From NCBI RefSeq assembly GCF_947489565.1, contig NZ_CANLEA010000020.1, positions 1 through 64,000 of the forward strand: a stretch of 64,000 nt of DNA, given 5' to 3'. Source of the stretch: an uncultured Kordia sp. GTDB taxonomy: Bacteria; Bacteroidota; Bacteroidia; Flavobacteriales; Flavobacteriaceae. The stretch's first letter is position 1, and every line of letters begins with the position of its first letter. A program made the translations under genes and the position numbers. Shown piece by piece: positions 2,351 through 61,318 of this stretch. The notes under the pieces were generated by a model, which worked only from the letters and a program-made list of their open reading frames with translations, made no database searches and had not been told where the DNA came from.

Positions 2351-2530
2351 ATGAAAAACAAAAAAGCGAACAAAAAGCTAAGCTTTAAAAAAATTAAAGT
2401 TTCAGAATTAGGAACCTTGAGTATTAAAGGTGGCGGATCATTATTTACTTGTTATTGTTGTACGTCTGATCACTGTCCAAATTCACAAGATCAATGTGAA
2501 ACAATTAGGGGAAATACGTGTTTCTGCTAA
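2351..2530 (+). CDS. RiPP-like precursor peptide, Cys-rich core
   Basis: This 59-residue ORF starts MKNKKANKKLSFKKIKVSEL, a basic leader, followed by a GGG boundary (SIKGGG) and a core with seven cysteines (TCYCCTSDHC ... TCFC at the end). The architecture matches the lanthipeptide/GG-leader precursors found repeatedly in this window, although the leader is more divergent. A strong terminator follows at 2552-2576, so it is its own transcription unit between sdaA and dnaK. No modification enzyme or exporter is adjacent. A peptide product is inferred; the modification type is unknown. Confidence 0.72.
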   Translation: MKNKKANKKLSFKKIKVSELGTLSIKGGGSLFTCYCCTSDHCPNSQDQCETIRGNTCFC

Positions 2531-2551
2531 TCATTTTACAACGTTTTTAGG

Positions 2552-2580
2552 AAATGCTGACATCATGTCAGCATTTTTTT
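2552..2580 (+). terminator. Rho-independent terminator of the 2351 peptide gene
   Basis: Stem AAATGCTGAC / GTCAGCATTT with loop ATCAT, followed by a run of T. Confidence 0.88.
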
Positions 2581-2680
2581 GTTGGCATAGTCATTGACTT
2601 ATTATACTCGCATTAGAAAAGCAAACATTTTTAAAATTAAAGTATAACACAACACAATAGATAAAAGTTTAAAATAAGTT

Positions 2681-4597
2681 ATGAGTAAAATTATTGGAAT
2701 CGATTTAGGAACTACCAACTCATGTGTTTCTGTAATGGAAGGAAACGAGCCAGTAGTAATTGCAAATGCTGAGGGAAGACGTACAACTCCTTCTGTTATT
2801 GCTTTTGTTGAAGGTGGAGAAATTAAAGTTGGAGATCCTGCAAAAAGACAGGCAGTAACAAACCCTACAAAAACGGTTTATTCTATTAAGCGTTTTATGG
2901 GGAACAAATTTTCTGAATCTTCAAAAGAAGCAGGACGTGTTCCTTACAAAGTAGTAAAAGGAGACAACGATACACCAAGAGTTGATATCGATGGACGTTT
3001 ATATACACCACAAGAATTATCAGCAATGATCCTTCAAAAAATGAAGAAAACTGCTGAAGAGTTCTTAGGACAAGATGTTACGGAAGCTGTAGTTACAGTT
3101 CCTGCATACTTTAACGATGCACAACGTCAAGCAACTAAAGAAGCTGGTGAAATTGCTGGTTTAAAAGTAAGAAGAATTATCAATGAGCCAACTGCTGCGG
3201 CATTAGCTTACGGATTAGATAAAAAAGGACAAGACCAAAAAATTGCTGTTTTTGACTTTGGAGGTGGAACACATGATGTTTCTGTCTTAGAATTAGGAGA
3301 TGGAGTTTTTGAAGTATTAGCTACGGATGGAGATACACACTTAGGTGGTGATGACGTAGATGAGAAAATTATCAACTGGTTGGCAGATGAGTTCAACAAT
3401 GATGAAGGAATGGATTTACGTAAAGATCCTATGGCATTGCAACGTTTAAAGGAAGCTGCAGAGAAAGCTAAGATTGAATTATCTAGCTCAACTTCTACAG
3501 AAATTAACTTGCCTTATATTACGGCAACTGCAAGCGGACCTAAGCACTTAGTACGTTCATTATCAAGATCTAAATTTGAGCAATTAATTGACGATTTAGT
3601 AAAAAGAACAATCGAGCCTTGTCAAACTGCCCTTAAGAATGCAGGTTTATCTACAGGAGATATTGATGAAATTATCTTAGTTGGTGGATCAACACGTATT
3701 CCAGCAGTACAAGAAGCTGTTGAAAAATTCTTTGGTAAAAAACCAAGTAAAGGAGTAAACCCTGATGAGGTTGTTGCCGTTGGTGCAGCAATTCAAGGTG
3801 GAGTTTTAACAGGAGATGTTAAAGACGTTTTATTATTAGATGTAACGCCACTTTCATTAGGAATTGAAACGATGGGGAATGTAATGACAAAGTTGATTGA
3901 TGCTAACACAACAATTCCAACGAAAAAGTCACAAGTATTCTCAACTGCAGCAGACAATCAGCCATCTGTGGAAATTCACGTATTACAAGGTGAGCGTCCA
4001 ATGGCAGCACACAATAAAACAATTGGTCGTTTTCACTTGGATGGAATTCCACCAGCACAAAGAGGAGTTCCTCAAATTGAAGTAACGTTTGATATTGATG
4101 CGAACGGAATCATCAATGTTTCTGCAAAAGATAAAGGAACAAACAAAGAGCAAAATATTCGTATTGAAGCTTCTTCAGGATTGACAGAAGAAGAAATTGC
4201 AAAAATGAAGCAAGAAGCAGAAGCAAATGCGGAAGCGGATAAAGCTGCAAAAGAAACGGCTGATAAGTTAAACAGCGCAGATTCTATGATTTTCCAAACA
4301 GAAAAGCAATTAAGCGAATTTGGTGATAAATTATCTGATGATAAGAAAAAGCCAATCGAAGATGCTTTGGAAGAATTGAAGAAAGCGTATGAAACAAAAG
4401 ACATCGCTGTAATCGATCCTGCTTTAGAGAAAATCAACGAAGCATGGAAAGTTGCTAGTGAAGAAATGTACAAAGCACAGGCTGAAGCACAACAAGGTGA
4501 TGCTGGACAAGCTGGACCAGAAGCTTCTGCACCAAGCGGAGATGAAGGGAAAGACGGAGAAGATGTACAAGACGTAGACTTCGAAGAAGTGAAATAA
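2681..4597 (+). CDS. dnaK: Molecular chaperone DnaK (Hsp70)
   Basis: ATP-dependent chaperone of 638 residues, full length for the family. The N-terminal ATPase begins [15 protein letters not shown] (phosphate-1 motif), with [13 protein letters not shown] (phosphate-2) near residue 190 and the adenosine motif [12 protein letters not shown] near 335. The substrate-binding domain follows, then a helical lid and an acidic tail ending [11 protein letters not shown], typical of bacterial DnaK. No grpE or dnaJ is adjacent, so it stands alone, with a strong terminator just downstream. I could not identify a heat-shock operator in the 100 bp upstream. Confidence 0.98.
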
Positions 4598-4620
4598 TTA
4601 TTTCACAGCTATATAAAACA

Positions 4621-4650
4621 AAAAAGCAGCTCAATGAGCTGCTTTTTTTA
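4621..4650 (+). terminator. dnaK terminator
   Basis: AAAAAGCAGCTC / GAGCTGCTTTTT with loop AAT, followed by Ts, 24 bp after the dnaK stop. It may also act for the converging minus-strand gene ending at 4663. Confidence 0.9.
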
Positions 4651-4662
4651 TAGCAATACTTT

Positions 4663-5589
4663 TTAAAAAGAAGTCAAGTGCAACTTTTTATTTTTATAAC
4701 GGAACACAGTTCCTTTTCCTTTTAATTTTGCCTCTTGTTCAGCTTCAATCTTCATGAATTTTTCATAGTATTTAGAAACTTCTGCATTGCTAAGTGTCGG
4801 TTTTCCACCATTTGTAATGGCTTCTGTGATGTATGAATGTAACAATCCTTGGTATGCGTTTTTAAACAAATCGTGCGTTGCAAAGATGTCGCAACCAATA
4901 ATTTTATCGCCAGAAACGGCAATGACTCCAACGACAGAAGATTTATTGATAAGTCTGTTCTTAAAAAAATCTAAATAGGAATTCAAATCTTTGGTGTATG
5001 TTTTTGACTTTGCCAATTCAGCATAGGTTCCTGTACCAGAAGTTGCTTGATTTTTCTTGGTAGTTTCTGCCACATTTGCCCAAACTTTTTGCTGATCTTT
5101 CTCTACCAAAGCTGCTTTTCTAACTTCCTTGCTACTTACATTATAATAACCATTAAAGTTATTTCCAGATTCTTTTTGTTGCCATCTGTGTTGTTCTACG
5201 CAAAACGCTGGAATATTCTTTGTTTCGCCTGGTGCAATCACAACATCTTCTGCAACCAATCGATCTTGTTTTCCGCCTTTTACCACTTCTCCCGCAATGA
5301 TATATACATTTACATTTGAGTTGTTGATGGCAATAAGCGTATTTACAGAACCAGAATCATTGATTTCTATTTTACCAGATTCAATCGCTTTTTTTAAATT
5401 ATCATACTTCCCAATATTTTGATAGGCTTTTTTATAAGCAGTATTGGCTTTAATTGGAATGAGTTGTAAATTTTTGAATACATTTTTTTTCGTATTCATG
5501 ATTTTTAAATTTTTGCTGTTCATCTGCGCCGATACAGAGATAAAACAACAGCAAAATAACGCTACTAACGCATACTTACTATAAGACAT
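4663..5589 (-). CDS. Secreted ARPP-1 (DUF6569)-type protein
   Basis: The first 21 residues (YALVALFCCCFISVSAQ) form a signal peptide, so the 308-residue protein is exported. The mature part shows features of the ARPP-1 family: LKNLQLIPIKA at about 40, VNVYIIAGEVVKGGKQDR at about 93, and PGETKNIPAFCVEQHRWQ near 125, where the CVEQ-RW stretch is the family's hallmark. The family is known mainly from domain surveys and no enzymatic activity is established. It converges on dnaK across the terminator at 4621-4650 and appears monocistronic. Confidence 0.75.
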   Translation of the reverse strand: MSYSKYALVALFCCCFISVSAQMNSKNLKIMNTKKNVFKNLQLIPIKANTAYKKAYQNIGKYDNLKKAIESGKIEINDSGSVNTLIAINNSNVNVYIIAGEVVKGGKQDRLVAEDVVIAPGETKNIPAFCVEQHRWQQKESGNNFNGYYNVSSKEVRKAALVEKDQQKVWANVAETTKKNQATSGTGTYAELAKSKTYTKDLNSYLDFFKNRLINKSSVVGVIAVSGDKIIGCDIFATHDLFKNAYQGLLHSYITEAITNGGKPTLSNAEVSKYYEKFMKIEAEQEAKLKGKGTVFRYKNKKLHLTSF

Positions 5590-5724
5590 GATGTATTGAT
5601 TTTAAGAATTTCCTATGGAAAATAACTTCAATATCTAAGTAAAAAAATATGAAATTAGTCTAGTGTAGTTCTCAGGATGTAAAAACGGCGTATGGGTTAG
5701 GGAAGAAGCTGTATAGAATAGAGA

Positions 5725-5802
5725 AAGCTATTTGAAGAGTCAAATTTTCGTCAAACCAAACTTGATTCAGGATGACGTTTTTAAAGACTTTTCAAATAGC
5801 TT
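5725..5802. repeat. Nested inverted repeat downstream of the lectin/T9SS gene
   Basis: Outer arms AAGCTATTTGAAGAGTC (5725-5741) and GACTTTTCAAATAGCTT (5786-5802) pair along 17 bp with one G:T. Inner arms CGTCA (5749-5753) and TGACG (5773-5777) surround CTTGATTCAGGA, which looks like a decayed copy of a CGTCATCCTGAA-type dispersed palindrome. It lies just 3' of the minus-strand gene ending at 5836 and may serve as its transcription end. Confidence 0.6.
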
Positions 5803-5835
5803 CTGCTCTAAAAATTATGGTGTCTTACTAAGGTT

Positions 5836-7488
5836 TTAGTTTTTCACAATTCGCTTTACAGCAATATTATTTTGAATGTCTTGCAATCGTATAAAATACA
5901 TTCCTGCTGCAAGATTAGAAATATCAATAGTTTTTCCTTCTGAAAGTTGTCCAATATCCGTTGAGGTTTGAAGTATTCTTCCATTTAAATCTGTAATGGC
6001 AATGCTAGCCAAAGAAACATTGGTCACACTATTAATCGTAATCAAACCTTTTGTTGGATTTGGAACCAAATCAATACTGTTTGAAAATGAATTTTCAGTG
6101 ACACTTAAGTTTTCATCTACAGTAACGTCAAAAGAGCACATGACAGCATTTCCTGCCAAATCGGTAATCGTAAATGTATTGGTTGTTGTTCCAATTGGGA
6201 AATCGGCTCCACTAGCTAAACCAGCTGTTTGCGTAGGAATGTAATCAATTTCTAAAAGATATCTGTACGTACTTCCATTAGTAATGTCATTCCAACCGCC
6301 ACTTGATTGTATTACAGTATAATCTTCATTTCCAGCATTATTCGGCTCACCGGGATTCCAGTTGTCATAAGTAGATGTATCTCCACTCTGCCATACAAAA
6401 GTACCTTCGGTGGCAGTATCACTAAATCCAAGTAAAACATCTCCAGCACCTCCAACTTTACTAATTGCTTCTGTAATAGTTGCATTGTCTGTTGCATTTC
6501 TTATTGTTCCCACAAAACCACCTTGTGAAATAGCATCGTTAAATGCATCTGCAGGTGCAAAAGAATTGTCTGATAAATAATACGCTTTCCCATTAATATT
6601 GGTCAATGGCGTAAAATCTGTTAAAGGATTGATCAACACACAATTATCGGTAGGAGATAAGGTGTAATTTACAACGGCGGTCGTATCTCCAAAATTAGCA
6701 GCAGTAATCATAATATCTGCAGGACAACCCGCTACTGGATCTTCATTATCTGTAACTGTTACCGTAAAACTACAGCTAGATACATTATTATCGGAATCGG
6801 TCACGCTCATAAAAACTTCGGTAACTCCAACTGGAAATGCTGAACCAGAAGCTAAACCAGAAGTTACGGTTGGTGTCAACATACCATCTTCTGTATCGTT
6901 GGCAGTGACACTATAGTTTACAACAGCTTCGCATAGTCCTGTAGTGTTATTTACGTTTATGTTTGCAGGACAAGTAATTACTGGTGAATCTCCAATAGAT
7001 TCATACAATTGCACGTCTGCAATTTGATTGATGCTAGATGTACCACAAGTTCCTGTAAAATTAACTCTATAATAGGTATATGAGTTTGTATTTGTAAATG
7101 AAAATGTTCTTGAGAAAAAACGAGTGGAAACACACGGAAGATTTCCAGTAGCAATACTTGTGAAGTTTGTTCCGTCGTTAGAACCAAAAATTTCATAATC
7201 TGTTGGATCTCTTTCAGGCGCGTCATTTGCAGTGACAAATTCCATGGCAATTGCAGTCGCAGAAACGCCTAATAAATCGACTTCAAATCCAATACCATCA
7301 AAAGCATTGAAATCTAAGTATTTTGTATTAGAATTTTGATCAATTACATTCTGAACAGCTTCACCACCAGGAGAATTTACACTACCAAAAGTGGTGGCGG
7401 TATGTATGCTATCGTCAAAAATTCCTTGTGCATAATTGGTGGTTATGCCAGTGATAAAAAGAAATAAAACGAGTAATTTTTTTTTCAT
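5836..7488 (-). CDS. Secreted multidomain protein: discoidin-like, HYR, C-type lectin, T9SS tail
   Basis: A signal peptide (LLVLFLFITGITTNYAQ) leads a 550-residue exported protein. Residues about 25-165 resemble a discoidin/galactose-binding jellyroll. Two HYR (hyalin) modules follow (PVITCPANINVN and DNEDPVAGCPADIMI), the second split by a C-type lectin-like domain with WNPGEPNN, DYTVI and GGWNDI near 370-400. The last 75 residues (LVPNPTKGLITIN ... GMYFIRLQDIQNNIAVKRIVKN) are a type A T9SS sorting domain. Predicted to be cell-surface or released, and to bind glycans. Monocistronic; domain calls are from motifs, the ligand is unknown. Confidence 0.85.
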   Translation of the reverse strand: MKKKLLVLFLFITGITTNYAQGIFDDSIHTATTFGSVNSPGGEAVQNVIDQNSNTKYLDFNAFDGIGFEVDLLGVSATAIAMEFVTANDAPERDPTDYEIFGSNDGTNFTSIATGNLPCVSTRFFSRTFSFTNTNSYTYYRVNFTGTCGTSSINQIADVQLYESIGDSPVITCPANINVNNTTGLCEAVVNYSVTANDTEDGMLTPTVTSGLASGSAFPVGVTEVFMSVTDSDNNVSSCSFTVTVTDNEDPVAGCPADIMITAANFGDTTAVVNYTLSPTDNCVLINPLTDFTPLTNINGKAYYLSDNSFAPADAFNDAISQGGFVGTIRNATDNATITEAISKVGGAGDVLLGFSDTATEGTFVWQSGDTSTYDNWNPGEPNNAGNEDYTVIQSSGGWNDITNGSTYRYLLEIDYIPTQTAGLASGADFPIGTTTNTFTITDLAGNAVMCSFDVTVDENLSVTENSFSNSIDLVPNPTKGLITINSVTNVSLASIAITDLNGRILQTSTDIGQLSEGKTIDISNLAAGMYFIRLQDIQNNIAVKRIVKN

Positions 7489-7706
7489 AATGAGTTGGTT
7501 AAGGTTAATTTTACTTTGAAATTTGTCAGGAAGTTAGTAGAATTTGATTAGACTATCAAATTTTTCATTTAAATTGACTAAAAATTATAAACTTCTCAAA
7601 ATCAACTACATTATAAGGTTATTACTGTGATAAATGCAATCACAGCATAGCTATTTTATCTATCGAACAAATAGATTATGAATGAAGAAAATAAAAATTG
7701 AATGCT

Positions 7707-9809: not shown

Positions 9810-9970
9810 AGCTTACAAAGAAACTAAAAAATAATGTGAGTATTATGCCATTTTTAGTCTTAAACCATGTGCTTGTAGTATAATTAAAAAATAAAGATTC
9901 AGTACTGATATAAAGCTAATAAAGAGAGTATTAGTTTTTCACCTTGTAACCTTTTGATAATGAGTGTAAT

Positions 9971-10006
9971 AAAAAATGCATGATCTTGAAAATCATGCAT
10001 TTTTTT
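9971..10006. terminator. Bidirectional terminator
   Basis: A perfect 14-bp stem AAAAAATGCATGAT / ATCATGCATTTTTT around loop CTTGAAA. The A and T runs on the two sides let it work in both directions; it most likely ends the minus-strand esterase transcript. Confidence 0.8.
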
Positions 10007-10065
10007 GGTTGGTTGATTGGTTATTATAGATGAGACTGAGCTACTTTAGGTTTTTTAGGAAAACT

Positions 10066-10091
10066 AAAAATCATCGCTCAGCGATATTTTT
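10066..10091. terminator. Second terminator-like hairpin 3' of the esterase gene
   Basis: AAAAAT-ATCG / CGATATTTTT around CTCAG, about 80 bp past the esterase stop on the minus strand. Short stem, so weaker than the one at 9971. Confidence 0.5.
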
Positions 10092-10169
10092 CATAGTGTA
10101 AAAGTATATAGAAAAAGGAAAAATGCATTACGTGATCGCCTTACTATATGTAGGTAAGTCCGTTACATT

Positions 10170-10814: not shown

Positions 10815-10887
10815 TAGTATAATTATGCTTAGGGTTTCGTATTTTTGTATTTCAAAAGTAGTCGATAAATTTCCATAAATATATCAA

Positions 10888-16739: not shown

Positions 16740-16909
16740 TTAGCAATAGTTATTGCACCAAGAAGCATTACTTCTGCTTTCAGATGGCTTGCAAATATCA
16801 TTGTCACAATAGCGATACAATTTTGGTGGTTTTCCTCCAGAAACTTGATTCAAATTTCCAGTAACATTTTGCAAAATGCTAACTTTTTTAGTGGCTTCTG
16901 TTTTTTCAT
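16740..16909 (-). pseudogene. RiPP-like precursor broken by one missing A in a homopolymer
   Basis: The ATG at 16909 is followed by six A and gives a 19-residue dead end. Adding one A gives a perfect 56-residue precursor: MKKTEATKKVSILQNVTGN, then NLNQVSGG, then a core with CDNDIC and SWCNNYC at the end. From KVSILQ to the TAA stop at 16740-16742 the frame is open and has the leader and double-glycine layout of the other peptide genes here. Either the gene is disrupted, the tract slips during transcription or replication, or the base is a sequencing error. Its terminator is at 16704-16737. Confidence 0.7.
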
Positions 16910-31163: not shown

Positions 31164-31202
31164 TAAAAAAAAGTCCGCCATAATTGACGGACTTACTTTT
31201 TG
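31164..31202 (-). terminator. Terminator of the 31223 peptide gene
   Basis: AGTCCG / CGGACT around CCATAATTGA; on the minus strand it is followed by eight T. The same stem occurs at 31592-31620. Confidence 0.85.
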
Positions 31203-31591: not shown

Positions 31592-31620
31592 AAAAAAGTC
31601 CGCCATAATTGACGGACTCC
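31592..31620 (-). terminator. Terminator of the 31642 peptide gene
   Basis: Same AGTCCG/CGGACT hairpin as 31164, followed on the minus strand by T7. Confidence 0.85.
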
Positions 31621-32137: not shown

Positions 32138-32219
32138 AAATGTCAAATTGAGCGCAGTCGAGATTTAAATGAAACAAAATAGTTTTGTAAGCTTTCTAAC
32201 TGCGCTCGATTTGACATTT
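32138..32219. repeat. REP-like inverted repeat (GAGCGCAGT arms)
   Basis: AAATGTCAAATTGAGCGCAGT (32138-32158) pairs with ACTGCGCTCGATTTGACATTT (32199-32219), 21 bp with one mismatch, around a 40-bp loop. Related GCGCAGTCGAG words occur at about 21978, 24791 and, degenerate, 40554. It lies 3' of the DUF3857 operon. Confidence 0.8.
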
Positions 32220-32254: not shown

Positions 32255-34204
32255 TTACTCCTTTGGATTCATCAAAATTGCAGCTTTGTTAAAGTCAGAA
32301 GCCGCATTGATCACTTCTCTAAAGCCTTCATATTCAGTAATTTCATATTCAAATTCTTTATAGAATTCTTCAATAGTAATTGTGAGTTTATTTCCGTCTA
32401 GTTTATAATTAGATTCAAACTTACATTTCTGATTTCCTTCTTCATCTAGCAATTCTTTCTTAATGATCAGCGATTCTAAGCCTTCAATTTCATAATCTGA
32501 AGGAATCGTTACTACAATTTCATAATTGTAACGATTTGGATATTGCATCTGAATTGGATTGATACGCTCGGTTTCTTGGTACAATTCACTTTGCGTTCCA
32601 ATGACTTTTCCCACCTGAAAAATATAACTCTCACCAGCTTCTTCCAATAAAGATTCAGAAGTTATGGTACTGCTTACCAAAAATGGTTTGTTGTATTCCA
32701 ATTGCAGCATTTCCTTGTTGGCAGTCTCGTATTTTTTAACCACTTTATCTTCAATTCCAGAACCTGTTAAGTAGTCTTCAAATTCTTTGACAGCTTGTTC
32801 TGGCGCTAGATTTAAGTACGCTCTGTTGTTCATTGCCCAATGTCCGTAATACTCTTGATTCTGGTTAATTTTCACATATTCCATTTCATCTTCAAAAGAA
32901 ATATTCATATTGCGCACAACACGACTATAATCTTGGTCTTTTTGTAGTATTTTATAGAAGCTGAATTGCTTTTTATTGTTCACGAAAATTCCTGTATTCC
33001 CTAAAATATTCGGCGGAATTTCACTCAAACGGTAATCCACTCTATTTGGCGTAATATAGTTGTAGGCTTCTGGAATGTAAATTAAAAATTCGCGCAAAGC
33101 TGTCGGATTAAAGAATTCAGAATCAAATTTATGCTCATATACATCTGACGTAATTACAGGCATATATTCCACTTTTGCAGCTTCTAATAAATGCGAATAT
33201 ACTTTGATGATTCCCAAATCACTTGCCGATTTATTTTTGATAATATAATCAATTTCAGAAAGTTGTGAGTTGTTGTTTTTTACAATTGTATAATTCTTCT
33301 TTACATAATCATCAATCAAATACGCTTTGGTATACGCATCTGTTTTTTGATCTTTAAGAATGCCTGCTACAATTTTTGTAATCTCAGGATTCACTTTTTC
33401 AGGAAACATTCCTTCCGTAATATTCGTCACTACATTGCTCCACAACATATCATCGGTTACTTGTGTTCCAGGACCAAAACATTGAAAAGCAACATAGATT
33501 TTATTAGAATCTGGCGTTGCGTATTCTTCTTCAATCATAGGAACAATATCTTCCAGTACCAGTTGTTTTCCTTCTCTTTTATTATACGTACGATTGTCAA
33601 AATCCGTAAAAGCATTGTATACTTTTGTACGACCAGGCAATTTTCCATAAATAAAATCGTATTCCAGCTTTTTAATCGGATAGCTTTTCTGTAATGTTTC
33701 GCGCCCAAAAGCAGAGTATTCTTTTTCCAACGTATATAAGACTTCAATTTCCGAATCCTTTTCAGCACCTTCAATAGCAAAGATTTTAAAATCGCCGTAT
33801 TCTTCTACATTTTTGACTTCTTTGATATTGTCTTTGTTCAACAAGGTCACTTTTCCATCGGGCGTAATTGTACGTGCTTTAATATCTACAATATTAATGA
33901 CATCGTACATAGAAATATACACCGTATTGTGTGTTTTAATTCCTTTTTCGTCATGTACACGTGCAATCGTATGCGTTGTTTCAAACTTTTGCAGCTCGTT
34001 GCCGAACTTTGGTACTACATATTCTACCATATATTTTTCCATGATTGCAATGGAAGATTCGTTGGCTTCTTTATCAGATAATTTGTGTAGTTTCGGTTTC
34101 TTTGCCCAATCATAATCTTTGTAGAATTGAGAAAATGCTTGTGTTGTACATAAACACAAAAGGATGACAATAACTGCTCTCATAGATGTTAATTTACTTT
34201 TCAA
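32255..34204 (-). CDS. Exported DUF3857 protein with an apparently dead transglutaminase domain
   Basis: 649 residues, signal peptide VIVILLCLCTTQAFSQ, then a DUF3857 beta domain (about 60-240) and a transglutaminase-like region near 280-390. Its partner upstream has RYGDCKD with the catalytic Cys; here the aligned segment reads NKSASDLGIIKVYSHLLEAAKV, without Cys. The domain is therefore probably non-catalytic. It overlaps the end of the upstream DUF3857 gene by 11 bp, so the two are translationally coupled and may act together in the periplasm. Confidence 0.82.
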   Translation of the reverse strand: MKSKLTSMRAVIVILLCLCTTQAFSQFYKDYDWAKKPKLHKLSDKEANESSIAIMEKYMVEYVVPKFGNELQKFETTHTIARVHDEKGIKTHNTVYISMYDVINIVDIKARTITPDGKVTLLNKDNIKEVKNVEEYGDFKIFAIEGAEKDSEIEVLYTLEKEYSAFGRETLQKSYPIKKLEYDFIYGKLPGRTKVYNAFTDFDNRTYNKREGKQLVLEDIVPMIEEEYATPDSNKIYVAFQCFGPGTQVTDDMLWSNVVTNITEGMFPEKVNPEITKIVAGILKDQKTDAYTKAYLIDDYVKKNYTIVKNNNSQLSEIDYIIKNKSASDLGIIKVYSHLLEAAKVEYMPVITSDVYEHKFDSEFFNPTALREFLIYIPEAYNYITPNRVDYRLSEIPPNILGNTGIFVNNKKQFSFYKILQKDQDYSRVVRNMNISFEDEMEYVKINQNQEYYGHWAMNNRAYLNLAPEQAVKEFEDYLTGSGIEDKVVKKYETANKEMLQLEYNKPFLVSSTITSESLLEEAGESYIFQVGKVIGTQSELYQETERINPIQMQYPNRYNYEIVVTIPSDYEIEGLESLIIKKELLDEEGNQKCKFESNYKLDGNKLTITIEEFYKEFEYEITEYEGFREVINAASDFNKAAILMNPKE

Positions 34205-37390: not shown

Positions 37391-37543
37391 TTAACCTTTA
37401 CACTCGCACGTTTCTTCATGAGTACAACACAATTGTTCGGTATTGCAAAGTTCACTACAAGGAAGAACTGGCTTTCCTTTCACACTACATTGTGGCAAAC
37501 CTCCATGTATCTTATGCATAAGGTTTGAAATTCTTTTTTTAAT
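37391..37543 (-). pseudogene. RiPP-like precursor remnant with a missing or non-standard start
   Basis: The open frame reads KKRISNLMHKIHGG, a short leader with the IS-L and GG pattern, then a core with seven cysteines (PQCSVKG, LPCSELC, QLCCTHEETCECKG) to a TAA at 37391. The codon at the expected start is ATT (37543-37541); the only in-frame ATG (37519) would leave a seven-residue leader. It is either a decaying copy or a gene using ATT or the internal ATG. It lies 3' of menE and divergent from the 37636 peptide gene. Confidence 0.6.
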
Positions 37544-49561: not shown

Positions 49562-49846
49562 CTAATCTAAATCATTGGTCTCTCCGCAATGCAAATCGGA
49601 ATAGTTACATATAAAAATCGTATTCGGATTACAATCATTATAGTCGCTGTTAGTACAATAAAAATTTATAGAAACAATACAGGTATCATGTAATTTTGAA
49701 TGATTATCACAAGTTACATCATAAGAAATATCTGTAGTGCAAGTATTTCCAGCACTATTTGGTCCTTGCCCTTTAATTTGAGCGGATGATAAATTCGATA
49801 CAAGCTTCTTATTGAGCTTTAACGATTTAAGATTCTTTTTTTTCAT
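49562..49846 (-). CDS. Class I lanthipeptide-like precursor with a long core
   Basis: 94 residues, leader MKKKNLKSLKLNKKLVSNL, boundary IKGQG rather than GG. The core is about 65 residues with eight cysteines at broad spacing (NTCTTD, DVTCDN, DTCIVS, FYCTNS, NDCNPN, FICNYS, LHCGET) and many Asn/Asp/Thr. Transcribed away from the GH17 gene; hairpin at 49508 behind it. No modification genes. The unusual core length sets it apart from the others. Confidence 0.82.
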   Translation of the reverse strand: MKKKNLKSLKLNKKLVSNLSSAQIKGQGPNSAGNTCTTDISYDVTCDNHSKLHDTCIVSINFYCTNSDYNDCNPNTIFICNYSDLHCGETNDLD

Positions 49847-54757: not shown

Positions 54758-54778
54758 GAATATTCTAAAAAACATAAA

Positions 54779-54816
54779 AAAATCCGCAGTATTCCAGCAT
54801 GAATATTGCGGATTTT
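54779..54816 (+). terminator. Terminator of ada
   Basis: AAAATCCGCAGTATTC / GAATATTGCGGATTTT around CAGCAT, then CTTTT. Nearly the same stem as at 56198. Confidence 0.88.
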
Positions 54817-54869
54817 CTTTTAAAAAATAGTAAATTTATGGTGTCTTTCCCTCAGATAAAAATTCCTAA

Positions 54870-55580
54870 ATGAAGAAAAATATAGTAACTACTTTCGTAA
54901 TTACACTGCTACTATTAAGTATTGTATTTGCATTACCTAAAGAAAAAACGAAATATACATTACAAGTAGCATCGAATATTGAAATACAGCAAGACACTAT
55001 GTTTACTTATGGAAAAGCATTATTTAAAGAGAATTGCAGAGCCTGTCATTCACAAGATATGATTCGTACATCAACAGCACCGCCATTAGGAGGCGTAACG
55101 AAGAAACGAAACAAAGAATGGTTATACAAATTCACCAAAAACTCATTAAAAATGTATAAAGAAGGAGATAGTCTTGCTGTAGCCATAGGTGATGAATATT
55201 GGGGATTAATGACATCCTTTCCAATGTTAGCGGATAAGGATTTAGATAAAATCTATTATTATGTAGAAAAGCGTTATGAAATGTCGCTACAAGGAATTCC
55301 AGTCCCAATAGAATTTGAATTTAAAGCAGCTGAAAACAACAATGCCAAAGCTTGCACGCATATTTTAATTGATAAAGAAGATATTTTAAACGTATCCGTT
55401 TCAAAGACCAGACATTGGACATTTAGTTGCAAACGTACATCACACAGCAAATCTAACTGGAAAAAAACTACGTTAAAGGCAATGTTTGATTATGATAAAT
55501 CTGTCAATGAAATAGCAGCTTTAGTACATGATTTTTCAGCTTTTAGAAGCTCTAAAACTTCCTATTGGGATTTTAAGTAA
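54870..55580 (+). CDS. Monoheme c-type cytochrome, exported
   Basis: 236 residues, N-terminal hydrophobic segment (IVTTFVITLLLLSIVFA). The heme motif is CRACH (C56, C59, H60) and MTSFPMLADKDLDKIYYYVE offers the distal Met, giving a single class I cytochrome domain of about 45-135. The C-terminal 100 residues (KACTHILIDKEDI ... SSKTSYWDFK) match nothing I know. Probably periplasmic, inner-membrane anchored; partner unknown. Confidence 0.85.
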   Translation: MKKNIVTTFVITLLLLSIVFALPKEKTKYTLQVASNIEIQQDTMFTYGKALFKENCRACHSQDMIRTSTAPPLGGVTKKRNKEWLYKFTKNSLKMYKEGDSLAVAIGDEYWGLMTSFPMLADKDLDKIYYYVEKRYEMSLQGIPVPIEFEFKAAENNNAKACTHILIDKEDILNVSVSKTRHWTFSCKRTSHSKSNWKKTTLKAMFDYDKSVNEIAALVHDFSAFRSSKTSYWDFK

Positions 55581-55664
55581 GTCTCATGGTATCACATATA
55601 AAACAAGTGAAGTTATATAGAAATTTTTATCAGTGTTACACAAAATATAATTAAAGAAAAACCA

Positions 55665-56160
55665 ATGGATAGAAAAGAAATTATAGATAAAAAACAGCTT
55701 TTTGAACTGATTGAATTCATCTTTACAGACACTAAAAACGAGTTTTATGAATCCTATTCAGAAATGGAAAAAAGAGCTTGTTCGAATGCATACATTTTCG
55801 GAGTTTCAACACTATTTTGAAAATGGAATCGCGAATGGAAAAGTACATTTCGGATTTGGCATTTATCATCCTGAATCCAAAGGTAAATTCTTCACTTCAA
55901 AAATAGCACTTGATCCAAAATATTGTAACGGAAACACATTTCGGTATAGAATAGATGGTTGGGCAATCATTGCGATTCACCTTGATTTACAAAATGGAGA
56001 AAACCAGATGGAATGTAATATATCTGTAAACTCAAAGGAAAGAGCTAAAGATTGGAATAATACAAATCCTGAATTTGGAAATCCTGAATTATGGGATTGG
56101 AAGTTTGTAAAAAGTAACGCTCAAAAAATAATTAATCAACTCAAAAAAGTGGCGAAGTAA
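55665..56160 (+). pseudogene. Hypothetical gene split by a homopolymer frameshift
   Basis: ATG 55665 opens a frame MDRKEIIDKKQLFELIEFIF that stops after 51 codons. The following frame (to TAA 56160) encodes ELVRMHTFSEFQHYFENG ... LINQLKKVAK and has no convincing start of its own. The switch lies in GGAAAAAAGAGC (about 55767-55772): removing one A joins SEMEK to ELVRM and yields one protein of about 164 residues. The product is unrecognised; the C-terminal part has a beta-rich domain with RIDGWAIIAIHLDLQ. A true mutation, slippage or base-call error are all possible. Confidence 0.65.
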
Positions 56161-56197
56161 GGAAAATAACCGCCAATCATATCAAAGCACAAAACAT

Positions 56198-56239
56198 AAA
56201 AAATCCGCAATGTTCATTTTAGAATATTGCGGATTTTTT
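56198..56239 (+). terminator. Terminator after the split gene
   Basis: AAAAAATCCGCAATGTTC / GAATATTGCGGATTTTTT around ATTTTA; it copies the ada terminator stem. Confidence 0.85.
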
Positions 56240-56279
56240 TATATCATCTAAAAGTTGTCGCTTTTGCGGGAACAAATAC

Positions 56280-56362
56280 AATTGCGCAGCAATCCAAAGA
56301 GCTCCAATTTCGCAGAAACAATTCTAAAAGCGAAGAGGTCTAACAGCAAAGCGCTCTAAAAC
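56280..56362. repeat. Repeat words abutting the TraB gene stop
   Basis: TTCTAAAAGCGAAGAGGTCTAACAGCAAAGCG units end within about 8 bp of the stop codon. Same word family as at 1-691, 22070-22178 and 40755-40883. Confidence 0.8.
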
Positions 56363-57253
56363 CTAAAGAACCGGTTCCACCGTATATCCTTGCTTTCTCA
56401 ATAAGTTAATCACACCTTGATCTCCTGGCAAATGCAACGCACCAACACCAATAAAAGCAGGCGCTTCTTTTGTAATATTCTCAATTAATGGAATCCAATT
56501 TCTATTGCGTTGATCTACTAAATTATCTTGAAAATCTGCTTCCAAACCTTGTTCTGTCATCACAGATAACAAACCTTCCAAATCTTCTGCATTGTAATAT
56601 TTGGTCATTTCTTCAAAGCTTTTTTTGCTTTCATCCATGCCGCTAGTTGCCATTTCTACCAATGATTTCAATTGTTCTTCGTATGGAATATTATCAAATA
56701 CTTTCATTTGATCAGCAATCGTTTCCAAGCCAATAACATCTTCTTTTTGTTCTTTAGCAACTTTCATAAACTCAGTTTCATACGCAGTTCCATTATCACA
56801 AACAGCCATTTTTGCTGTAATTGCTGAGGTAATTGCTAGCGGTTTCATAGTATTGAAAAACTTTAAATCCATACCAACTTGTTCTTGGAAAAAATCTGAT
56901 AGGGTTTTATAATCTTTATCATTCATCAAGCCTTTGATGGTTTTGCCATCTTCCAAAAAGATATGCTTCATCATATCTGCTTGCAATTTAGGATCGGACA
57001 TGTCAATCTCTAACACCAAACGTTCAGTCTCATCAAATGCTTTTCTAAGCTTATCTGTATAATTATAATCACAGGTTAGGTGAATAGTTCCGTATAGATA
57101 AGAAGGTTTTTCTAAACCATTTCCAGAAATTTTCCAGAGTAACGAATTTTCTAATTTTGCAGTTGTAGTACTTTTAGCAACAGATTTGCTAGAATTACAA
57201 CTCATAAATAATGCGAGTACAGAAAGTACTAATAGGGACAGTTTTTTATTCAT
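56363..57253 (-). CDS. TraB/GumN family lipoprotein
   Basis: 296 residues, lipoprotein signal ALFMSC (C19). The TraB-type domain has YLYGTIHLTC near 50-60, LVLEIDMSDPKLQ near 80, VIGLETIADQMKVFDNIPYEEQL near 170-195, and the C-terminal GVGALHLPGDQGVINLLRKQGYTVEPV. The family is structurally related to EreA/ChaN-like Tiki proteases (metal dependent). Predicted outer membrane or periplasmic. The substrate is unknown. Confidence 0.88.
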   Translation of the reverse strand: MNKKLSLLVLSVLALFMSCNSSKSVAKSTTTAKLENSLLWKISGNGLEKPSYLYGTIHLTCDYNYTDKLRKAFDETERLVLEIDMSDPKLQADMMKHIFLEDGKTIKGLMNDKDYKTLSDFFQEQVGMDLKFFNTMKPLAITSAITAKMAVCDNGTAYETEFMKVAKEQKEDVIGLETIADQMKVFDNIPYEEQLKSLVEMATSGMDESKKSFEEMTKYYNAEDLEGLLSVMTEQGLEADFQDNLVDQRNRNWIPLIENITKEAPAFIGVGALHLPGDQGVINLLRKQGYTVEPVL

Positions 57254-57424
57254 AAATTAAATTTAATGCGTCTGGGAACGCTCTTTTTTTTGATAAAGAT
57301 ACTAAAAATATATGCGTAGACTTGGAAAGCACACTCGAAGTCAATTTGAAATGCTTATATTATTTTTTTTAGTTTTTTAGATTAAAAATTCGATATTTGT
57401 ATTTCACAAAAGCGCAAAGGATAG

Positions 57425-57475
57425 AGGCATTGTTGAAGCTCCTCGCAGAGAGCGACTGCCGAAAGCCTGACTGCA
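57425..57475. repeat. REP-like element copy
   Basis: TGTTGAAGCTCCTCGCAGAGAGCGACTG is the inverted counterpart of part of 46957-47033. It is followed by CCGAAAGCCTGACTGC and a GAGCGGAGTCGAAGTG word. Confidence 0.75.
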
Positions 57476-57527
57476 TAAACACTGAGCGGAGTCGAAGTGT
57501 GTTGCAGATGCGCCAAAATATCAAATT

Positions 57528-57710
57528 ATGGGAATGAATAAAAATACAGTATTAGGTTGGGCTACATTAATAATGATCATAGTCGGCGTAGGTTTAATTG
57601 CACTCGGTGCTTTTCGCTATGACGATGTTGCAGGCTACGGCTTTGCAGCGGTTGGTGTAGGATTTTTTTCTATAGCGTGGGTTTTTAACGCACTAAAAGG
57701 TAGAGTATAA
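57528..57710 (+). CDS. Small membrane protein, CAL67264 type
   Basis: 60 residues, two hydrophobic segments (VLGWATLIMIIVGVGLIALGA and GYGFAAVGVGFFSIAWVFNAL) with FRYDDVAG between. It matches the CAL67264 family of short flavobacterial membrane proteins, of unknown function. Single gene with its own terminator (57738). Confidence 0.85.
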   Translation: MGMNKNTVLGWATLIMIIVGVGLIALGAFRYDDVAGYGFAAVGVGFFSIAWVFNALKGRV

Positions 57711-57737
57711 AATAAATAACCAAATACAATACATGAT

Positions 57738-57766
57738 AAAGCTTCCATATGTTGGAAGCTTTTTTT
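57738..57766 (+). terminator. Terminator of the CAL67264 gene
   Basis: AAAGCTTCCA / TGGAAGCTTT around TATGT, then more T. Confidence 0.88.
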
Positions 57767-57858
57767 TGTTTTAAAAATGAAAATGTAAATGAAAAATTGT
57801 AGATTTAACTCTCTAAATATAAAGGCAACTCTTTCTATTTAAAAAGCAATATAATTTC

Positions 57859-58389
57859 ATGGAGTTAGAGATACTCATTGAACAATTTCAAAATAAAGAC
57901 GCCAAAGCTTTTGAATCGTTATATGAAATGTATAACGAAAGTATTTTTGGTGTGATAAATACGATTGTCAAAAATGATGATATTGCTGCAGAAGTACTAC
58001 AAGATGTTTTTATAAAAGCATGGAATAAATCGGATGCGTATACCGCAAAGAAAGGTCGTTTTTTTACATGGTTGCTCAATATTGCCCGAAACGCTGCTAT
58101 TGACAAAGTCCGTTCAAAATCATTTAAAAACGCACAACAAAACCAAGACATTGATTTCTTCGTACATAGTATTGAAAGCAATGATAATTTAGAGCAAAAA
58201 ATCAACGCAATTGGCATTAAAAAATACATTGGGAAGCTTGCTGAAAAATGCAAGCAGCTCATTGATTTGATATATTTTAAAGGATTCACACAAAAGGAAA
58301 CCGCAGAAACACTCGAAATCCCGTTAGGAACTGTTAAAACTAGAAATAGAAATTGCATAAGTGAACTTAGAAAAGCACTAGAAGTATAA
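57859..58389 (+). CDS. ECF-type RNA polymerase sigma factor
   Basis: 176 residues. Region 2 (KAFESLYEMYNESIFGVINTIV ... LQDVFIKAWNKSDAYTAKKGRFFTWLLNIARNAAIDKVRS) and region 4 (LIYFKGFTQKETAETLEIPLGTVKTR) are both clear. It overlaps the anti-sigma gene by one base (TAATG), a typical translationally coupled sigma/anti-sigma pair. The regulon is not known; candidate targets are not visible from this window. Confidence 0.94.
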   Translation: MELEILIEQFQNKDAKAFESLYEMYNESIFGVINTIVKNDDIAAEVLQDVFIKAWNKSDAYTAKKGRFFTWLLNIARNAAIDKVRSKSFKNAQQNQDIDFFVHSIESNDNLEQKINAIGIKKYIGKLAEKCKQLIDLIYFKGFTQKETAETLEIPLGTVKTRNRNCISELRKALEV

Positions 58390-59201
58390 TGGATAGCAAG
58401 GAATACATAGCATCTGGAATATTAGAACTGTATGTAGCAGGCGCGCTTTCTGAACAAGAAAACGAGCAAGTGCATGCTATGATGCAACAGTATCCGGAAG
58501 TGAAGCAAGAAGTGCTTTCTATTGAAGCTGCTATTGTAGGTTTGACTGCGGCAACGGACCACAGAAAAACAACGATTCCTTTTAGTTCAATTCAAGAGAA
58601 ATTACAACTTTCGGAGAATGATACGAAGGAAACACCTGTAATTCCAATCAAACCGAAACCATCGCTATTTAGTTATGTTGGTTGGGCAGCAGCGATTGTA
58701 TTTGCGGCAGGCTTGGTATTTACTATGATGTTGAAAAACGATGTAGAATCGCAAATAGAAATTGTACGAGCTGAAAGAGAAGCTTTAAAAGAACAAATAT
58801 ATCAAGCAAATAGCGATTTAACAGCGGCAAACGAGTTGTTGAATGTATTACGAACCAAAGACATCATTTCGGTGCCACTTGGCGGACAAGCCGTTTCTCC
58901 AGATTCATACGCCAAAGTATATTGGGATAAAAGTGCGAACAATGTCTACTTAGATTTACAAGGATTGCCAGTACCACCGCCAGGAAAAGTATATCAAGTT
59001 TGGTCTTTAAAGTTAGATCCGCTAACGCCAACGAGTTTAGGTGTCATCGAAGATTTTACTACAGATACAGACAAAGTGTTTGATTTACAAAATGTGAACG
59101 AATCTGAAGCTTTCGGAATTACCCTTGAACCAGCAGGTGGAAGTGAATCACCAACAATGGAACAACTCTATACGCTTGGAGTTGTAGCTTCGAATCCATA
59201 A
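58389..59201 (+). CDS. Anti-sigma factor, RskA type
   Basis: 270 residues. The N-terminal about 80 residues are the helical sigma-binding part (ELYVAGALSEQENEQVHAMMQQ), one transmembrane segment follows (YVGWAAAIVFAAGLVFTMML, about 97-116), then a coiled stretch (QIEIVRAEREALKEQIYQA) and an RskA C-terminal periplasmic domain (SANNVYLDLQGLPVPPPGKVYQVW). Its start overlaps the sigma stop. A membrane-bound inhibitor of the upstream sigma factor. Confidence 0.93.
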   Translation: MDSKEYIASGILELYVAGALSEQENEQVHAMMQQYPEVKQEVLSIEAAIVGLTAATDHRKTTIPFSSIQEKLQLSENDTKETPVIPIKPKPSLFSYVGWAAAIVFAAGLVFTMMLKNDVESQIEIVRAEREALKEQIYQANSDLTAANELLNVLRTKDIISVPLGGQAVSPDSYAKVYWDKSANNVYLDLQGLPVPPPGKVYQVWSLKLDPLTPTSLGVIEDFTTDTDKVFDLQNVNESEAFGITLEPAGGSESPTMEQLYTLGVVASNP

Positions 59202-59226
59202 ACAAAAAGATATAATTTACGGGAAC

Positions 59227-59263
59227 AAAAAATCACGGTTAGAATTTGTTGTTCTAACCGTGA
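59227..59263 (-). terminator. Terminator of the 59306 peptide gene
   Basis: TCACGGTTAGAA / TTCTAACCGTGA around TTTGTTG. On the minus strand it is followed by TTTTTT, so it ends the peptide transcript; it may also help stop the anti-sigma mRNA. Confidence 0.82.
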
Positions 59264-59305
59264 CTTGAATTGTATTCATTAGAAAGATGATCTATCTAAT
59301 CTGCG

Positions 59306-59440
59306 TTAGTTACAACAATTCGATTTACATGTACAGCAATCACAAGTACAATCCTCGTCTTGCATTCCTCCTTTAATGTCTTCTAAATTACAGACTGCTG
59401 TTTTGTTTAATTTCAATGTTTTAATACTGTTTTTTTTCAT
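59306..59440 (-). CDS. Short Cys-dense lanthipeptide-like precursor
   Basis: 44 residues, leader MKKNSIKTLKLNKTAVCNL, DIKGG boundary. The core is only 19 residues and holds seven cysteines (DCTCDCCTC, NCCN end) with just two Ser/Thr partners, a density better suited to disulfides or metal binding than to many lanthionines. The leader itself also has one Cys (AVCNL), unusual among the set. First of four peptide genes or remnants in 2 kb. No modification gene adjacent. Confidence 0.8.
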   Translation of the reverse strand: MKKNSIKTLKLNKTAVCNLEDIKGGMQDEDCTCDCCTCKSNCCN

Positions 59441-59640
59441 GGTATTTATATTTAAATGGTTAATAATACAATAAAGGTATGTCTTAAATTAAGAAAAGTA
59501 TTACATTTATACCATACTATTTTACTCTTATTGTAAGTTAAATAATATAAAAATAAAGAATTAACCCTACTTTGAATATTGTTTAAACGTAAGATTTATC
59601 TTATTTTTAAGGTGTTACTGCTTTTTAATTTGTAAAATAT

Positions 59641-59687
59641 AAAAAAGCGAACCACATATTGACAAGCTCAATGTGAAGTCCGCTTTT
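59641..59687 (-). terminator. Terminator of the 59726 peptide gene
   Basis: AAAAGCG / CGCTTTT outer stem and CACATATTGA / TCAATGTG inner stem; on the minus strand it is followed by T6. Confidence 0.8.
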
Positions 59688-59725
59688 CCAAGGATATTTC
59701 CTTTTTCAGTATTACTAATTCTTTA

Positions 59726-59962
59726 TCAACAATAGTCAGTTTCGCATAAAAAATCTGTATGACATTCAGGGACTTCCGAAAGATGACAATCAGGTTGTTC
59801 AGTATGATGTGGGCATCTGTGTGGTTCTAGAGAGTGACAATCTATGACACTAGGAGGGCAACCTCTTGTAAAATTTGGATCTGTTCCTCCGTAAATCTTT
59901 TTTCCGTTCAATATAGAAATTGTTTGTTTTCTAAAACGCAGACTCTTTAAGTTTGTTTTCAT
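59726..59962 (-). CDS. Lanthipeptide-like precursor with His/Cys-rich core
   Basis: 78 residues, leader MKTNLKSLRFRKQTISIL, KKIYGG boundary. The core repeats a Cys-His pattern: DCHSLEPHRCPHHTE, DCHLSEVPECHTDF and CETDYC, with seven His and eight Cys. This recalls metal-binding peptides as much as lanthipeptides. Most of the other peptides here lack His clusters. Terminator at 59641. Modification and target are unknown. Confidence 0.8.
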   Translation of the reverse strand: MKTNLKSLRFRKQTISILNGKKIYGGTDPNFTRGCPPSVIDCHSLEPHRCPHHTEQPDCHLSEVPECHTDFLCETDYC

Positions 59963-60121
59963 GATATAAAGTTTAAGTTGGACAATACTTTAAGGTAAAA
60001 AAACGAATTGAGAAGTTGTTACGTGAAAACCGTAATTATCAGATAATCAGTATGTTTTGGGCTTTTAGATATAAAAGAGAACTTCTACGGTTCACTTTTT
60101 GTTAGTTGTATATACAGCTCT

Positions 60122-60252
60122 TTAACAAACCCAAGAGCCTCTATTAAAGAAAGAGCTACAATAATCATTGCTACATCCTGTGAGCTGATTACTAGTGCTT
60201 GTGCCATCAATTTTTATATAATGTTAACGATTTAAAACTTCTTCTTTATCAT
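60122..60252 (-). pseudogene. Decayed RiPP-like precursor
   Basis: Three frames are needed to read it: ATG 60252 gives MIKKKF then stop; a second frame gives SFKSLTLYKN, the standard leader pattern; a third reads IDGTSTSNQLTGCSNDYCSSFF ... GSWVC to a TAA at 60122. The core ends with a Trp-x-Cys and CSNDYC like the core at 16740 (CDNDIC, SWCNNYC), so the two are probably old paralogues. The missing leader middle and at least two shifts make it non-functional. Confidence 0.65.
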
Positions 60253-60354
60253 GGTATAATTTTTGGTGAAACAATACCTAATATGTATTAAAAAGCAGCA
60301 GAAGCAGTAGTGATGTGCTTCAATACGAATATGAATAACCAACCAATTCCTTAA

Positions 60355-61068
60355 ATGAAAAATATAAAACTTTTGTATGTATGGTTTCTTTTTGGCTTTC
60401 TTTTTACAGCATGTAATCAGACGCAAGTGAAAAGTGAAGTTCATCAGTCTAAATACTGTACGAATCAAATGAGTTTGTTTTCAGTTCCAGATTCGCTCAA
60501 AAAAATAACAATAGATTATCAATTGGAAGCGAAGCCTTTATTAAAATCTATTGAAGAAAAATTGGATACAAATGTATGCGGAGAACTTGTTGGTTTTGGA
60601 TTAATTCTGGAAAATGAAGATGTAGTCAAAGTGAAGTATCGAAAAATGTGTGATGATGGAATGATAAGTTGTTATTTGGGACGGAAGGAAGCAAACGTAA
60701 TTTTAAACTTAAAAGGTTTATTATTAATAGAACATGAAATTGTTCCGATGGATAGTGTCAAATTTTGGATGCGTAAAAATTTCTTGAAGAAGAAAGTTAT
60801 AAAGTATAAACGAACTTCCGTTTTATGGGATGTGGAAACACCAAAAGATAGTATTGAAAAAGCATTTGCGGCGATTAGAGATGGTTATTTGTTAGTTTAT
60901 GAAAACTTAGCGCAAGAATTGTTTTCTAAGAAAATCTGCGAGCTAAAGACTTCAGAAATAGATACCTTAAAAAAGCGATTGCCGTTTACAGTAGAATTAG
61001 ATTTAAAAAGAACAATTTTGCTTCCGCCACCACCGCCGCCAATTGAAACGACTGAAGAAGAAGAATAA
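60355..61068 (+). CDS. Hypothetical lipoprotein
   Basis: 237 residues; the signal ends LFTAC (C20), so a lipoprotein. The rest is a mixed alpha/beta domain with four or so cysteines (SKYCTN, NVCGEL, RKMCDDGMISC) and a Pro-rich end (LLPPPPPPIE) before an acidic tail. I do not recognise it. It is next to the peptide cluster but on the opposite strand to its members; a link is unproven. Confidence 0.6.
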   Translation: MKNIKLLYVWFLFGFLFTACNQTQVKSEVHQSKYCTNQMSLFSVPDSLKKITIDYQLEAKPLLKSIEEKLDTNVCGELVGFGLILENEDVVKVKYRKMCDDGMISCYLGRKEANVILNLKGLLLIEHEIVPMDSVKFWMRKNFLKKKVIKYKRTSVLWDVETPKDSIEKAFAAIRDGYLLVYENLAQELFSKKICELKTSEIDTLKKRLPFTVELDLKRTILLPPPPPPIETTEEEE

Positions 61069-61069
61069 C

Positions 61070-61100
61070 AAAAAAGACACTTCCTAAAAAGCGCCTTTTC
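61070..61100. terminator. Terminator after 61068 and before 61133
   Basis: AAAAAGACACTT-type arm pairs with AAGCGCCTTTT around CCTAAA. It serves both the 60355 lipoprotein gene and the minus-strand peptide gene. The same sequence recurs at 61390. Confidence 0.8.
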
Positions 61101-61132
61101 ATTAAAACTAATTGTGTTGAGTATACATGTTT

Positions 61133-61318
61133 TTAATCATCACAGATATTCCAAATACTTTCAGTATTACAACCTGGTACATACGAAAATTTACAAATGA
61201 TTTGTCCATTTGGAAGTGGATACGATGTAAATACTGAACCGCCTTTTAGTGAGCTTGGATCAAAATTTGAAATCTCTGTTTTGTTTAATCTTAACGTTTT
61301 TAGATTCTTTTTTTTCAT
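61133..61318 (-). CDS. Lanthipeptide-like precursor with an aromatic-rich core
   Basis: 61 residues, leader MKKKNLKTLRLNKTEISNF, LKGG boundary, then a core of about 34 residues with three Cys (IICKFSY, PGCNTES, NICDD) and many Ser/Thr/Tyr/Phe (SVFTSYPLPNGQ). The low Cys and high Ser/Thr content suits lanthionine chemistry better than the Cys-dense neighbours. It is flanked by the same hairpin repeated at 61070 and 61390. Confidence 0.82.
   Translation of the reverse strand: MKKKNLKTLRLNKTEISNFDPSSLKGGSVFTSYPLPNGQIICKFSYVPGCNTESIWNICDD

Follow-up and report, generated by a model that had tools for sequence, protein, structure and literature searches.

The window analyzed here is the whole 64,000-nucleotide stretch at positions 1 to 64,000 of contig NZ_CANLEA010000020.1 (C20) from an uncultured Kordia sp., and it carries eight small genes that we read as putative precursors of ribosomally synthesized and post-translationally modified peptides (RiPPs). 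An earlier note, made from the letters of this stretch alone, had described eight intact precursor genes with a shared leader, and all eight open reading frames (ORFs) are present with that leader:

2351-2530, plus strand: precursor with a divergent leader (MKNKKANKKLSFKKIKVSEL..KGG) and a Cys-dense core; leader profile 19.2 bits
31223-31456, minus strand: precursor of the DLPTIGHDDG core family with a canonical leader; leader profile 35.4 bits
31642-31863, minus strand: precursor with the neighbouring second copy of the DLPTIGHDDG core; leader profile 42.3 bits
37636-37896, plus strand: precursor with an aromatic/Cys-rich core; NF038153 24.4 bits, over the cut-off
49562-49846, minus strand: precursor with a canonical leader, a GQG boundary and a long Asn/Cys-rich core; leader profile 33.0 bits
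59306-59440, minus strand: precursor with a short Cys-dense core; leader profile 35.8 bits
59726-59962, minus strand: precursor with a His/Cys-rich core and a divergent leader; leader profile 26.4 bits, NF038153 match absent
61133-61318, minus strand: precursor with a canonical leader; leader profile 43.0 bits

The profile is an iterative, 27-position model of the leader trained on this genome, for which 80 stretches were taken, mostly around matches to the NCBIfam model NF038153 (lant_leader_L1a) and around enzyme loci. The window genes score 19.2 to 43.0 bits, values that are partly a matter of construction since all eight belonged to the training rows, and each lies above the best decoy from all frames of the reversed window (9.3 bits). 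The most divergent leaders are those of genes 2351 and 59726. A Gly-Gly (GG) boundary, described earlier as usual, closes the leader in seven of the eight genes, with GQG in gene 49562. Independently of our profile, NF038153 matched seven of the eight peptides at E<=1, all but that of gene 59726, and was the only NCBIfam match for those seven. Scanning the eight against NCBIfam and Pfam at the same E value listed no Nif11-type leader, a dedicated Nif11 model not having been run. Profile searches of the genome placed no LanC, LanB or C39 match on contig C20, and no RiPP enzyme was found in 30 of the 38 window ORFs of at least 200 amino acids (Pfam, E<=1e-5), so the reported lack of a nearby maturase holds for these classes; radical S-adenosylmethionine enzymes were not searched for genome-wide.

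The window genes sample a genome-wide leader family. The earlier note had proposed building a leader profile and counting its copies, and we made that count across 2.31 Mb of the 6.42-Mb genome. Among 14,393 small ORFs (1.51 Mb), 250 reached 15 bits and no reversed-DNA decoy did; at the working threshold of 13.5 bits, the level of the best decoy, there were 251. One of these, a 26-amino-acid ORF without a core (C15:204013, 21.1 bits), was dropped to leave 250 for totals, but it is still inside the statistics on 261 rows given below, which combine the 251 ORFs with 10 genes from a first random sample. Forty random 20-kb stretches from unfetched parts of known contigs yielded 12 further leader genes, 10 in the first twenty stretches and two in the second, the latter two entering the total and not the 261-row statistics. 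The direct count is therefore 262 leader genes, and extrapolation gives ∼324 for the genome (bootstrap 268-397) on the presumption that the never-fetched contigs (∼0.65 Mb) resemble the sampled ones. The eight window genes are a small part of a family ∼33 to 40 times larger than the window shows.

The 261 genes fall into 118 islands, 55 of which are single genes. NF038153 had 289 first-look candidates in this genome, of which 150 were scored, all of them matching at E<=10; at that E value it also found matches in 5 of 14 control genomes, and in none of the 14 did a match exceed the cut-off. All 11 Kordia genomes hold 23 to 60 NF038153 matches each at E<=0.01. We scanned for hairpins and promoters around the 259 genes that had a core of at least 10 amino acids and both flanks in hand. 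Terminator-like hairpins were found downstream of 93 genes and upstream of 16, compared with none in five shuffles. The motif TANNTTTG, known from flavobacterial promoters, occurred upstream of 37 genes and downstream of 27, with 20 to 33 in five shuffles; 22 matches sit 30 to 39 nucleotides 5′ of the start.

Judged by its sequence, the leader belongs to the class I lanthipeptide type of Bacteroidota (LxLxKx5L), with most NF038153 scores under the cut-off. The LxLxKx5L motif is present in 223 of 261 leaders in relaxed form and in 137 in strict form, and the GG boundary in 247. Because genes were selected by the leader alone, core composition provides an independent check. Cys accounts for 11.3% of the cores versus 1.1% of other open frames of 201 to 250 amino acids, and Thr 12.8% versus 5.7%, the reference frames including some that are not real genes. 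All but one of the cores bear Cys (260/261), the lone exception being the coreless 26-amino-acid ORF, and Ser plus Thr equal or outnumber Cys in 255, while only seven leaders contain Cys at all. The number of Cys residues is odd in 113 of the 261 cores, which argues against a pure disulfide scheme. Clustering of the cores at E 1e-3 gave 150 groups, 121 of them single; the 68-member group is a single-linkage chain, and we rejected it as a real family.

The earlier note had made its proposal depend on RiPP enzymes being encoded somewhere in the genome, and a genome-wide search for these and for C39 exporters recovered a split LanB, six LanC-like matches, a kinase/HopA1/LanC set and a C39 ATP-binding cassette (C39-ABC) exporter, all off C20. 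LanB (PF04738) is single in this genome and is split into LanB-N (759 amino acids) and LanB-C (302 amino acids, PF14028). Both parts lie in an operon-like set on contig C2, together with LanC (405 amino acids), a TPR/AraC regulator and three leader genes, beyond which HlyD and the C39-ABC exporter are encoded on the opposite strand. The three C2 precursors have LanB and LanC as cluster partners, and those on C20 have none. This LanC carries the WCYG and CHG motifs, which presumably hold the zinc ligands. The open frames of the six LanC-like (PF05147) matches are 340 to 427 amino acids long, too short for a fused LanM (model of ∼930 positions), and so they are not class II LanM enzymes. Exactly one LanB was found in each of the 11 Kordia genomes, all of which have the leader, and the LanB studied here is 88 to 97% identical to that of eight named Kordia records, from which we take the window to derive from a Kordia species. 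A second C39 transporter is located at C5:261362, and ∼12 kb from it are genes with a separate RiPP leader type (EL[NT]EEQLE.VAGG), of which there are three at L116 (C5:273470-275042) and L185.

The association of leader and LanB extends beyond this genome. In 19 of 20 related loci, from Kordia, Lacinutrix, Leptobacterium, Psychroserpens, Aquimarina and one further flavobacterium, a leader gene stands no more than 10 kb from LanB; the exception is an 8-kb Aminicenantes contig (L136). Among 149 Flavobacteriaceae genomes, one per genus, LanB was found in 15, a leader match in eight and both in seven (p 1.7e-7), and when the genome studied here is left out, six of the seven leader-bearing genomes have LanB (p 1.5e-6). 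The eighth leader-bearing genome (G065) has a weak match in a 500-amino-acid frame that looks like chance. Apart from the present one, the seven leader-bearing genomes contain one to three matches each at E<=0.01. In a set of 395 Bacteroidota genomes, 11 had a leader match, the best 19 per genome being scored so that no ranking is possible; besides the genome studied here, only G358 reached that limit. Its 19 scored matches all fall in one 3.3-kb array, and its first-look candidates number 55 versus 192 in the present genome.

We then compared the window loci with those of other Kordia genomes. The DLPTIGHDDG core family adjoins the ortholog of a 649-amino-acid gene (window 32255-34204) in 6 of 11 genomes, with two copies here and single copies in G004 (there in the reverse relative orientation), G006, G007, G009 and G010. 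Other leader genes occupy this site in G008 and G001, and none was found there in G002, G003 and G005. The 829-amino-acid gene that flanks it on the far side did not turn up in the G001, G003, G007 and G010 stretches, leaving the site with a single fixed boundary in these four genomes. G009 and G004 (L180, L181) carry two or more adjacent copies of this 829-amino-acid, MG2-domain neighbour, and the present genome carries one. An ortholog of gene 37636 was found at the same site in G008 only, among stretches from 10 relatives; at 59 to 61 kb, the 237-amino-acid neighbour was found in 3 of 10 relatives, whose fetched stretches contain no leader gene. Spread as a mobile element was considered and is disfavoured, because one core family has kept its place next to one gene in 6 of 11 genomes.

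For the core, the ratio of nonsynonymous to synonymous substitution rates (dN/dS) was 0.12, 0.23, 0.09 and 0.14 in four gene sets, of which two come from the window and two from the nucleotidyltransferase cassettes described below; two of the four include paralogs. The values are rough, since synonymous sites approach saturation in some sets and only retained genes can be compared. By these ratios, retained cores are under purifying selection in the four sets, with variety arising between loci. The suggestion that the core is free to diversify is borne out insofar as cores differ between loci, but they are constrained where a gene persists across species (dN/dS 0.09 to 0.23). The repertoire would shift as small genes whose cores are unrelated are duplicated, gained and lost, a kept core being held by selection.

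The explanation that we favour, at a probability of roughly 70%, is that the window genes are orphan substrates of a genome-wide, trans-acting class I lanthipeptide-type system, with one machinery serving hundreds of precursors. The N-terminal leader (∼M-K-K-x-x-L-K-x-L-x-L-N-K-K-x-I-S-N-L..GG) would recruit the split LanB (LanB-N and LanB-C) and LanC of the C2 operon, whereupon Ser and Thr of the core would be dehydrated and then joined to Cys as thioethers. LanB dehydration is tRNA-dependent, and the thioether chemistry is proposed by analogy with known LanB and LanC enzymes. The C39-ABC exporter, with HlyD as its partner, would cleave at GG and export a product that may have an extracellular function. 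The earlier idea of trans-acting enzymes and scattered precursors gains support from the single split LanB, the LanC proteins and the exporter, all encoded off the contig; that LanB and LanC act on the orphans in trans is what we infer from this arrangement.

Several observations weigh against this explanation. The curated NF038153 cut-off (22 bits) is passed by only one of the eight window genes (37636) and by 43 of the 150 scored matches in the genome. Eight of the 15 LanB genomes have no NF038153 match at E<=0.01, so LanB also occurs without a detected leader of this type. The three leaders beside the LanB of this genome rank at the 6th to 20th percentile of the family and the most canonical leaders lie elsewhere, so that something else might read the canonical leader as well; the LanB loci of Lacinutrix and Aquimarina do, however, contain leaders of 35 to 42 bits. 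Further LanC sets accompany the same leader family, so that not every gene need go to LanB. The dN/dS sets, moreover, consist by nature of kept genes and are biased towards constraint.

A second explanation, which we hold to be unlikely yet worth serious weight, is that the leader is a docking tag for several synthetases (split LanB/LanC, a class V-like kinase/HopA1/LanC set and nucleotidyltransferase/LanC sets) and that the window genes are served by one of the latter two, by several sets, or by an enzyme that we did not recognize. At C16 (L099:6182-9579), a kinase-like protein (APH domain), a HopA1-domain protein and a LanC adjoin a leader gene; against the LxmK equivalog NF038156 the kinase scores 64.9 bits, with a cut-off of 315, and so is not assigned to LxmK. 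Three cassettes in this genome (L100:8075-11063, L101:8221-10230 and L102:9450-11271), in two gene orders, combine a LanC-like gene, a nucleotidyltransferase and a leader gene without LanB, and have relatives in other Kordia genomes. Seventeen nucleotidyltransferase loci were found across 10 of the 11 Kordia genomes, five of these loci being in the present one. A leader lies within ∼1.5 kb in 14 of the 17 loci, a LanC-like stretch is present in 11 and both in nine, compared with a chance of ∼0.11 of meeting a leader gene in a random stretch of such size. The enzyme-adjacent leaders, those of LanB included, are also less canonical (6th to 33rd percentile). On the other hand, every Kordia genome has its one LanB, one of the 11 lacks the nucleotidyltransferase, and leader presence tracks LanB across genera, all of which weighs against this second explanation.

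The motif GS..DxD, presumably the catalytic motif of the nucleotidyltransferase fold, is found in 16 of the 17 nucleotidyltransferase loci. In the LanC branch of the C2b type, both zinc-site motifs are missing from four single-frame copies (L190, L191, L192 and L199), as if the protein had turned scaffold; a fifth, broken copy (L193) could be read only in part. Both motifs are kept in the C27-type LanC of L195, L200 and L203. It is a doubtful but conceivable extension that one leader code recruits three dehydration routes, namely LanB, the kinase/HopA1 pair and a Ser/Thr-activating nucleotidyltransferase, the last of which would define a new lanthipeptide class. In such a scheme, the nucleotidyltransferase would place a nucleotide on Ser/Thr, and elimination followed by cyclization by LanC would complete the ring.

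It is much less probable that the products are unmodified double-glycine peptides, cut and exported by C39 and stabilized by disulfides, and not lanthipeptides at all. The frequent GG boundary, the presence of a C39-ABC exporter and some cores unlike known lanthipeptides would fit such peptides. However, Thr is doubled along with Cys, the Cys number is often odd, and the leader tracks the dehydratase; C39 was found in 8 of the 14 control genomes, none of which has a leader over the cut-off. Finally, we dismiss as highly improbable the reading of most genes as relics or as a selfish repeat, with leader DNA spreading without a function of the product. In its favour, there are near-identical neighbours (for instance C3:97238 and C3:96944, with leader and core in common), a DNA-level search finds the leader sequence in the manner of a dispersed repeat, and the window holds one credible remnant. 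Against it, the frames are open with Cys-bearing ends in 260 of 261 cases, core dN/dS is far below 1, one core family has stayed next to one gene in 6 of 11 genomes, and hairpins stand mainly downstream.

The remaining features of the precursor loci in the window are as follows:

37391-37540, minus strand: remnant with the second half of a leader (first half missing), GG and a Cys-rich end; 11.1 bits versus 9.3 for the best window decoy
16740-16909, minus strand: possible broken copy, two partial matches in different frames; 7.6 and 2.6 bits, at decoy level
60122-60245, minus strand: possible broken copy, weak; 7.4 bits, at decoy level
31172-31193, minus strand: terminator-like hairpin 3′ of gene 31223; hairpin-plus-T-run scan
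31597-31618, minus strand: hairpin 3′ of gene 31642, identical to that of 31223; failed the T-tail rule of the strict scan

Of the three remnants proposed earlier, only 37391 rises above all window decoys, and 16740 and 60122 do not, which reduces the visible decay to a single remnant that beats noise. Likewise, four of the eight genes, and not most of them, have their own terminator by the strict hairpin-plus-T-run scan, the hairpin of 31642 failing its T-tail rule. The density of leader genes, also put forward as a distinctive trait, amounts to 0.125 genes/kb in the window versus ∼0.05/kb genome-wide, only ∼2.5-fold more. Denser islands exist elsewhere, reaching 10 genes with gaps of less than 2.5 kb, and we ruled out the window as a special hot spot. 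The neighbours of the precursors are ordinary genes, among them Hsp70, serine dehydratase, RecQ, transglutaminase-like, VWA, carboxyl transferase and pirin genes. In addition, a palindromic repeat with TTGAGCGCAGTCGAG in its arm lies at 32138-32219 and has matches at many sites in this and other Kordia genomes, and a tandem array (period 161, 4.3 copies, 93% matches) occupies positions 1-693.

If LanB and LanC do serve the orphans, a single class I enzyme set would give Kordia a natural library of about three hundred ring-bearing peptides, ∼3-fold or more the prochlorosin number in the accessible parts of that literature. Class I enzymes of such tolerance would be useful in peptide engineering, and the gene sets common to the 11 genomes allow a test of whether such a library diversifies by selection or by drift. 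Because orphan genes lack enzyme neighbours, many of them would escape mining based on enzyme clusters.

That Kordia is rich in RiPPs is known. In the accessible text of the TrRiPP marine survey (PMC11118758), Kordia is named as RiPP- and lanthipeptide-rich, up to 176 RiPP precursors are given for one Bacteroidota genome of unstated genus, and LanC and nucleotidyltransferase genes around Kordia precursors are already published; orphans served in trans, a single LanB and core selection are not described in that text, the supplements standing outside the comparison. The accessible parts of PMC7477175 and PMC10734526 report one Kordia genome with nine clusters, one of them for a lanthipeptide, and a proteusin from Kordia. 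No description of Kordia orphan precursors served by one LanB was found in the titles, abstract openings and passages covered, which did not extend to subscription papers, most full texts and supplements. Relative to this literature, the precursor number, the single LanB hub and the one leader family beside three enzyme types appear to be new.

Two known systems come closest. Bacteroidota class I lanthipeptides of the pinensin type, as far as the available text of PMC7268733 describes them, share with Kordia the LxLxKx5L leader motif, the GG boundary, a split LanB, LanC and a C39 exporter, but 62% of their clusters have a single precursor beside the enzymes, whereas the window precursors and most of the fetched ones lie away from LanB. 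The prochlorosins and synechococsins (ProcM and SyncM, with ProcA and SyncA precursors) are alike, in the passages available to us, in a conserved GG leader, divergent Cys-bearing cores and the mix of tandem and solitary precursor genes seen in Kordia, and probably also in having one synthetase for many scattered precursors. Prochlorosins rely on a class II LanM and a Nif11 leader, in contrast to the split class I LanB plus LanC and LxLxKx5L leader of Kordia. In terms of scattered precursors per synthetase, the mark of the prochlorosin type, Kordia has 262 leader genes and one LanB, albeit with other LanC sets present, and its at least 262 putative precursors compare with 79 to 83, the highest numbers given, for the SyncM system in the parts of PMC10783134 and PMC9872173 that were available.

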